Source of the DNA: Burkholderiales bacterium
GTDB taxonomy: Bacteria; Pseudomonadota; Gammaproteobacteria; Burkholderiales; Casimicrobiaceae
Direction: 5' to 3'
Length of the DNA: 48,007 bases
NCBI GenBank assembly: GCA_017880805.1
Contig: JADGRP010000278.1
Location: forward strand, 1-48,007
In this document: positions 46,425 to 46,556 of the stretch, piece after piece
Layout: every line of letters starts with the position of its first letter
Numbering within the stretch: position 1 is the stretch's first letter
The notes under the pieces: model-generated
The model's input: the letters and a program-made list of their open reading frames with translations, nothing else
Told to the model about the DNA's origin: nothing
The model's database searches: none
Program-made: the position numbers and the translations under genes

Positions 46425-46556
46425 CAGAGAAAAAAGAAAGGCCCCGGCATCAAGGGGAGTGACACGGGGCCTAAGAACGCCCTTTGGCCGGTGAGATCAC
46501 GCGACCTAAGGGCACCCGCTCAGGGAGGGAAGCGGGAGACGTATAACCGTCTGCAC
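46425..46556 (-). ncRNA. structured RNA candidate in engB-hemB gap (position matches hemB/anti-hemB RNA motif)
   Basis: Four consecutive inverted repeats: AGGCCCCG/CGGGGCCT (46439-46472), GCCCTT/AAGGGC (46479-46513), CCCGCT/AGCGGG (46515-46536), AGACG/CGTCT (46537-46552). On the minus strand the first stem is followed by TTTCTTTTTTC. Orientation uncertain. Confidence 0.55.

Follow-up and report, generated by a model that had tools for sequence, protein, structure and literature searches.

The 310-bp gap between engB (stop codon at 46402) and hemB (ATG at 46713) in the window, by which we mean the whole stretch of 48,007 nucleotides from a Burkholderiales bacterium (Casimicrobiaceae) analysed here, raises the question of whether four adjacent inverted repeats within it form an RNA, from which strand that RNA would be read and to which of its two neighbours it belongs. 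A preliminary description had seen the repeats and favoured a minus-strand small RNA antisense to the hemB leader, probably the hemB/anti-hemB motif, whose strand it regarded as ambiguous. Our data show that the gap indeed holds four hairpins and a U-tract, at 46430-46551 (minus-strand z -6.1). The minus-strand fold of 46553-46430 reaches -59.6 kcal/mol (z -6.12), a stability equalled by none of 200 shuffles, and when the same 137 nt were folded on both strands the minus strand gave a z of -5.1 and the plus strand -2.9. The predicted transcript (46430-46553, minus strand, ~122-124 nt, its start placed by promoter spacing) is matched by Rfam family RF02837 and by our two models, R1 and R2. It would run convergently with engB, which encodes the ribosome-biogenesis GTPase YihA/YsxC (45626-46402, plus strand; Pfam PF01926), and divergently from hemB, which encodes delta-aminolevulinic acid dehydratase (46713-47720, plus strand; Pfam PF00490, E 6.7e-135).

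Read 5' to 3' on the minus strand, the RNA begins with hairpin 1, GACGGUUAUACGUC (46538-46551), in which all five pairs covary. Hairpin 2 (46515-46536), CCCGCUU-CCCUCCCU-GAGCGGG, is the most conserved part; its CCCGCUU..CCUCCCUGAGCGGG sequence is close to invariant across the order and recurs in other families, and its anti-Shine-Dalgarno loop CCCUCCCU (46522-46529), complementary to GGGAGG, is a candidate seed on the grounds of fold and conservation. Hairpin 3 (46479-46513) shows covariation in 7 of 7 pairs in our order-level alignment A1, where it has a longer form in the window's genus than the other families of the order do. Terminator scan, fold and covariation all identify hairpin 4 (46472-46439) as the stem of an intrinsic terminator, as had been proposed, followed directly by the U-rich tail TTTCTTTTTT (a T-rich tract at 46439-46430 in the DNA). 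The C-rich loop of this hairpin, ACUCCCCUU (46452-46460), is conserved in most of A1, is C-rich in most other families and may act as a second seed. The preliminary description was also right that the terminator has no protein gene ahead of it on the minus strand; what lies there instead is a putative sRNA promoter at 46586-46558. Abutting the -35 box of this promoter, on the plus strand at 46588-46610, is a terminator-like hairpin, CGGCAGCGTGCCG then GTCTTTATTT, perhaps the terminator of engB.

An Rfam search of the window at the gathering threshold returned no match, because the score for the family concerned is sub-threshold. With an E-value threshold, RF02837 (anti-hemB) matches the minus strand at 46539-46432 with 44.9 bits (E 1.9e-9), 4.6 bits below its gathering score of 49.5, the main difference being the longer hairpin 3. 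Close relatives in the same family straddle the cut-off (49.3-50.9 bits), and the window RNA is therefore better described as a divergent homologue than as a formal member: the gathering score is not reached, whereas hairpins 2-4 are present with covariation and the location between hemB and engB is that of the family. The same search gave a plus-strand match to CRISPR-DR10, which we attribute to chance and not to a repeat array.

The counterpart in Burkholderia cenocepacia J2315, ncS04, is anti-hemB, a 105-nt RNA with a start mapped by dRNA-seq, a 3' end mapped by RACE, a terminator and a Northern blot, and it co-purified with Hfq (PMC5688073, PMC4603805). Its gene neighbourhood is arranged <- -> <- (PMC5688073, PMC4603805), of which the arrangement in the window is the mirror image. 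The window RNA is of similar length and shares with anti-hemB (also Burkholderia RNA 7) the place between hemB and engB, the strand relation, three 3' hairpins and the CCUCCCUGAGCGGG hairpin. The Rfam model is without the 5' hairpin and the promoter, both of which are present in the window. The element is thus a diverged version of an RNA that was already known but whose function had not been characterised, and the preliminary description named its type correctly, although it overlooked a sigma-E-type promoter, two anti-Shine-Dalgarno loops and a probable homology to ErsA and sX13.

Covariation among relatives, which had been suggested as a check, settles the matter of structure and strand. 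Alignment A1 (63 order-level loci, the window RNA included) supports 20 base pairs, 17 of which show compensatory change. The bases pair in 94.3% of cells, compared with 83.3% after shuffling, no shuffle equalled the observed value by any measure, and the signal collapses when the pairing partners are slid. Covariation was also found independently in 46 members from other families (alignment A3). Taken as minus-strand RNA, A1 contains 70 G-U pairs and 12 C-A mismatches, and the two figures are swapped on the other strand, indicating that selection acted on the minus-strand RNA. The strand is accordingly no longer ambiguous: wobble counts, terminator, upstream promoter and the mapped Burkholderia ncS04 transcript all point to minus. 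On these sequence grounds the four hairpins are predicted to form a regulatory sRNA transcribed from the minus strand.

The conserved neighbour of this RNA is engB and not hemB. All 59 order loci that could be scored have engB beside the RNA, 53 convergent and 6 with the RNA reversed, whereas hemB lies on its 5' side in 50 of the 63 loci and is absent from the remaining 13; in the rest of the class polA takes hemB's place. The part of the early proposal that called for a minus-strand sRNA thus stands, while the part that made it antisense to the hemB leader is not supported, and a cis-antisense role towards hemB is disfavoured as the conserved function. Six loci (L013, L019, L057, L058, L061 and L063) have the sRNA downstream of engB in the same direction with hemB not adjacent, a local inversion. 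Genome G096 carries a hemB-linked copy (L012/L056, contig 12) together with two tandem paralogues beside a lon-like protease gene (L069, contig 65); each of the lon-side paralogues has its own sigma-E-like box, and RpoE was not detectable in the G096 assembly.

The promoter ahead of the RNA consists of a -35 element, GGAACTT (46580-46586, minus strand), and, 16 nt away, a -10 element, GTCTCA (46558-46563, minus strand), both located by a pattern search of the window's own genome and by comparison of the order loci. The consensus for sigma-E (RpoE, an ECF factor) is GGAACTT, ~16 nt and TCTNA, and the window's GGAACTT-N16-GTCTCA (46586-46558) fits this consensus. The exact pattern occurs twice in the genome, once upstream of the sRNA; the other match, at C60, is located immediately beyond a phasin-like gene. 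With a box counted when it scored at least 9 of 12, sigma-E-like boxes precede the sRNA in 52 of 62 order loci. The reverse strand gave none in these 62, other stretches taken from the loci gave one in 124, and shuffled sequences 19 in 1240. In relatives, including those of the same genus, rpoE carries a similar promoter of its own, TGAACTT-N15-GTCTNN, ~150 nt upstream of the gene. RpoE itself exceeds the threshold of its model in 105 of the 119 relatives, all 6 genus mates among them; canonical RpoE was not found in the window's own assembly, which is 94% complete, and its absence there is probably due to an assembly gap. Genomes in which RpoE was missing mostly had no strong sRNA match (Fisher p 4e-4, uncorrected for kinship). 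The sigma-E-dependent Hfq sRNAs MicA, RybB and MicL repress outer-membrane protein mRNAs together with Hfq, and the window RNA shares with this class, at motif level only, the sigma-E promoter. To judge from its promoter motif, the RNA is probably induced by sigma-E, the envelope-stress factor.

It is also conceivable, if unlikely, that an anti-hemB-type sRNA is transcribed here from a housekeeping sigma-70 or another ECF promoter and serves carbon or nutrient control like ncS27 and Spot 42. Spot 42, which occupies the same locus, is controlled by cAMP-CRP. In four loci of genus g2 (L045, L046, L047 and L050), where the sRNA sits between a ComM/YifB-like gene and engB, TTGACA-N17 boxes replace the sigma-E-like box, likely a promoter switch within one family to judge from the sequences. 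Furthermore, ncS04 was seen in ordinary growth of B. cenocepacia and was not significantly changed in the conditions tabulated, stresses among them (PMC5688073). In that work, which used a single 20-min exposure in another genus, brief stress, with SDS as one of the treatments, for the most part did not induce the sRNAs under test (PMC5688073). Against this reading, a scan for sigma-70 promoters found none at the sRNA locus, and GGAACTT-N16-GTCTCA stands at the right distance, with a like box in 52 of the 62 order loci.

That the element acts in cis, either as an antisense RNA to the hemB leader or as a plus-strand leader structure of hemB, is very improbable. The family name is suggestive, and in 50 of the 63 order loci the element does fall in the gap upstream of hemB, but 13 of the 63 have no hemB there, and in other families, where polA takes its place, the RNA and engB are still present. 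The wobble pairs, moreover, suit the minus strand only, and the RNA would start ~160 nt ahead of the hemB ATG. Least credible of all is that convergent transcripts meet at a bidirectional terminator or attenuator and no regulatory RNA is made. A terminator facing engB is indeed present, in the form of the 3' hairpin, but hairpins 1-3, the invariant CCUCCCUGA loop and the promoter box would then be needless, and in Burkholderia the counterpart has been mapped as a transcript and binds Hfq.

Taken as a whole, we hold with good confidence that the locus is best explained by a stand-alone minus-strand sRNA gene that is driven by RpoE, stabilised by Hfq, acts in trans through C-rich loops and belongs to an ancient lineage at the engB locus. 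The structure, strand, homology, locus conservation and promoter motif behind this reading come directly from the computations. The gene would be convergent with engB and divergent from hemB; under envelope stress, RNA polymerase holding RpoE would transcribe from ~46552 as far as the intrinsic terminator, ending at 46430. The product, ~122 nt long, would be bound by Hfq at its U-tail and stabilised by this protein. The C-rich loops CCCUCCCU and ACUCCCCUU could then mask, by base pairing, the G-rich ribosome-binding sites of mRNAs encoded at other loci, so that translation of the target mRNAs would fall. In its lineage, polA-sRNA-engB would be the order of genes in most of the class, hemB would have replaced polA in the window's order, and ErsA and sX13 would be included. 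Sigma-E dependence, the class of targets and the direction of regulation in the window are what we infer. A crude search of 41 order genomes for the exact seed TCAGGGAGG before an ATG gave 0 matches in the window's own genome and no recurrent family among the 30 loci found, many of which were short or internal frames; envelope-protein targets did not recur among them. Besides that search, the points that count against this explanation are the Rfam score below the gathering threshold, the steady level of ncS04 in B. cenocepacia, the lack of a canonical RpoE in the window's own assembly, the sigma-70-like TTGACA-N17 boxes of genus g2 and, for sX13, the reported independence from Hfq and the missing sigma-E-like box.

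The conservation of engB beside the RNA led us to examine the engB 3' flanks of 40 other families. R1, the model built from the order, has the window RNA among its 63 training sequences, so that its match to the window (46560-46430, 96.6 bits) is one to a training member. It matches 21 of the 40 flanks (E <0.02), compared with one weak edge match in 105 kb of rpoE loci used as a control. Most matched flanks follow a common plan of polA, a sigma-E-like box, hairpin 1, a hairpin with CCUCCCUGAGCGG, another with a CCCC loop, a terminator whose loop is C-rich and a convergent engB. Of 281 whole genomes of the class (GTDB Gammaproteobacteria, which includes the betaproteobacteria), 87 contain an R1 match with an E-value of 1e-4 or lower, in ~54 families by our count. 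Among the best 29 loci listed besides the window, 24 adjoin polA or engB, most with a sigma-E-like box, and the matches therefore cluster there and not at arbitrary terminators. Four loci from outside the order (L151, L153, L158 and L162) exceed the Rfam cut-off for anti-hemB.

Several lineages carry tandem copies of the sRNA, an amplification of sibling sRNAs: four between polA and engB at L149 (G255, 1086-1849, minus strand), four in G339 and two each in G199, G370, G326, G237 and G235. Loci L120, L149, L182 and L184 also give sub-threshold matches to the alphaproteobacterial ar14 (RF02344) and Atu_C7 (RF02501), which have C-rich loops as well, and the sRNA family may extend further.

A second model, R2, built only from the 46 sequences of other families in A3 and containing none from the window's order, recovers the window RNA with 54.7 bits (E 2e-13), true sX13 loci with 38.5-39.8 bits (E 3e-9 to 6e-9) and a true ErsA locus with 31.7 bits (E 4e-7), the latter two at the Rfam match coordinates; E-values of both our models are rough owing to a shortened calibration, and C-rich loops and terminators could inflate cross-matches. 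R2 gave no match in the 105 kb of control loci. The locus in G255 forms a bridge, matching RF02837 with 41.8, RF02232 (sX13) with 48.3 and RF01719 (ErsA) with 37.1 bits, and G255, G348 and G350 all match both RF01719 (34.8-37.1 bits, under the cut-off) and the order-built R1. Synteny and the shared promoter make homology of anti-hemB, ErsA and sX13 the better reading. It is fairly likely, in our view, that the three, treated by Rfam as unrelated families, are branches of one ancestral engB-locus sRNA that was originally driven by an envelope-stress sigma factor and occurs in at least ~54 families of the class, with 2-4 tandem copies in some lineages and a swapped promoter in some. Spot 42 may be a descendant by position that has diverged very far. 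The open-access literature yielded no earlier link between ErsA and sX13, nor the sigma-E-type promoter, the wide polA/engB-locus family or the union of anti-hemB, ErsA and sX13; we claim no priority. The anti-hemB RNA has so far been an orphan, expressed and Hfq-bound in Burkholderia without a function, and the promoter box supplies a testable regulator and a class of function, envelope stress.

Among known systems, ErsA of Pseudomonas (Pseudomon-1, RF01719), which reportedly represses mRNA, resembles the window RNA in its convergent position beside engB, a sigma-E-family promoter and a C-rich terminator loop. The promoter reads TGAACTT-N16-GTCATA in L148, and the window's box would by its motif be of the same sigma-E/sigma-22 type. 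The gene for ErsA is found between polA and engB and depends on sigma-22 (PMC8575079), whereas the window has hemB and not polA on the 5' side, polA-engB being the arrangement in related families. ErsA also differs in having no CCUCCCUGA hairpin and no R1 match, and the RF01719 model finds no match in the window up to E 10. The likeness to sX13 of Xanthomonas (RF02232) lies in the polA locus, C-rich loops, terminator and R2 match; its loop sequences differ, it was published as Hfq-independent, the three loci examined have no sigma-E-like box, and RF02232 scores the window at 21.3 bits (E 0.055), under its cut-off of 50. sX13 is always downstream of polA, its C-rich loops repress G-rich mRNAs, and its authors asked whether the polA locus in other bacteria likewise encodes such RNAs (PMC3771888). 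Our survey answers that it does, widely, and joins three separately named families.

The toxic small RNA family of ncS27 and S17 (RF02278) also has CU-rich loops complementary to ribosome-binding sites and occurs order-wide in betaproteobacteria, but it has two hairpins only, lies at other loci and is a separate Rfam family. One tandem copy of the sRNA at L138 (401-455, minus strand) matches RF02278 weakly (24 bits), and these double-hairpin sRNAs may be trimmed paralogues of the window's family. Spot 42 (RF00021) is alike in position only, lying between polA and a convergent engB/yihA; its cAMP-CRP control is unlike the sigma-E-type box of the window RNA, and sequence homology was rejected, with R2 finding nothing at spf in E. 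coli even when E-values up to 10 were allowed. If the common descent of the engB-locus sRNAs is true, the position of Spot 42 beside engB would be part of an older pattern.
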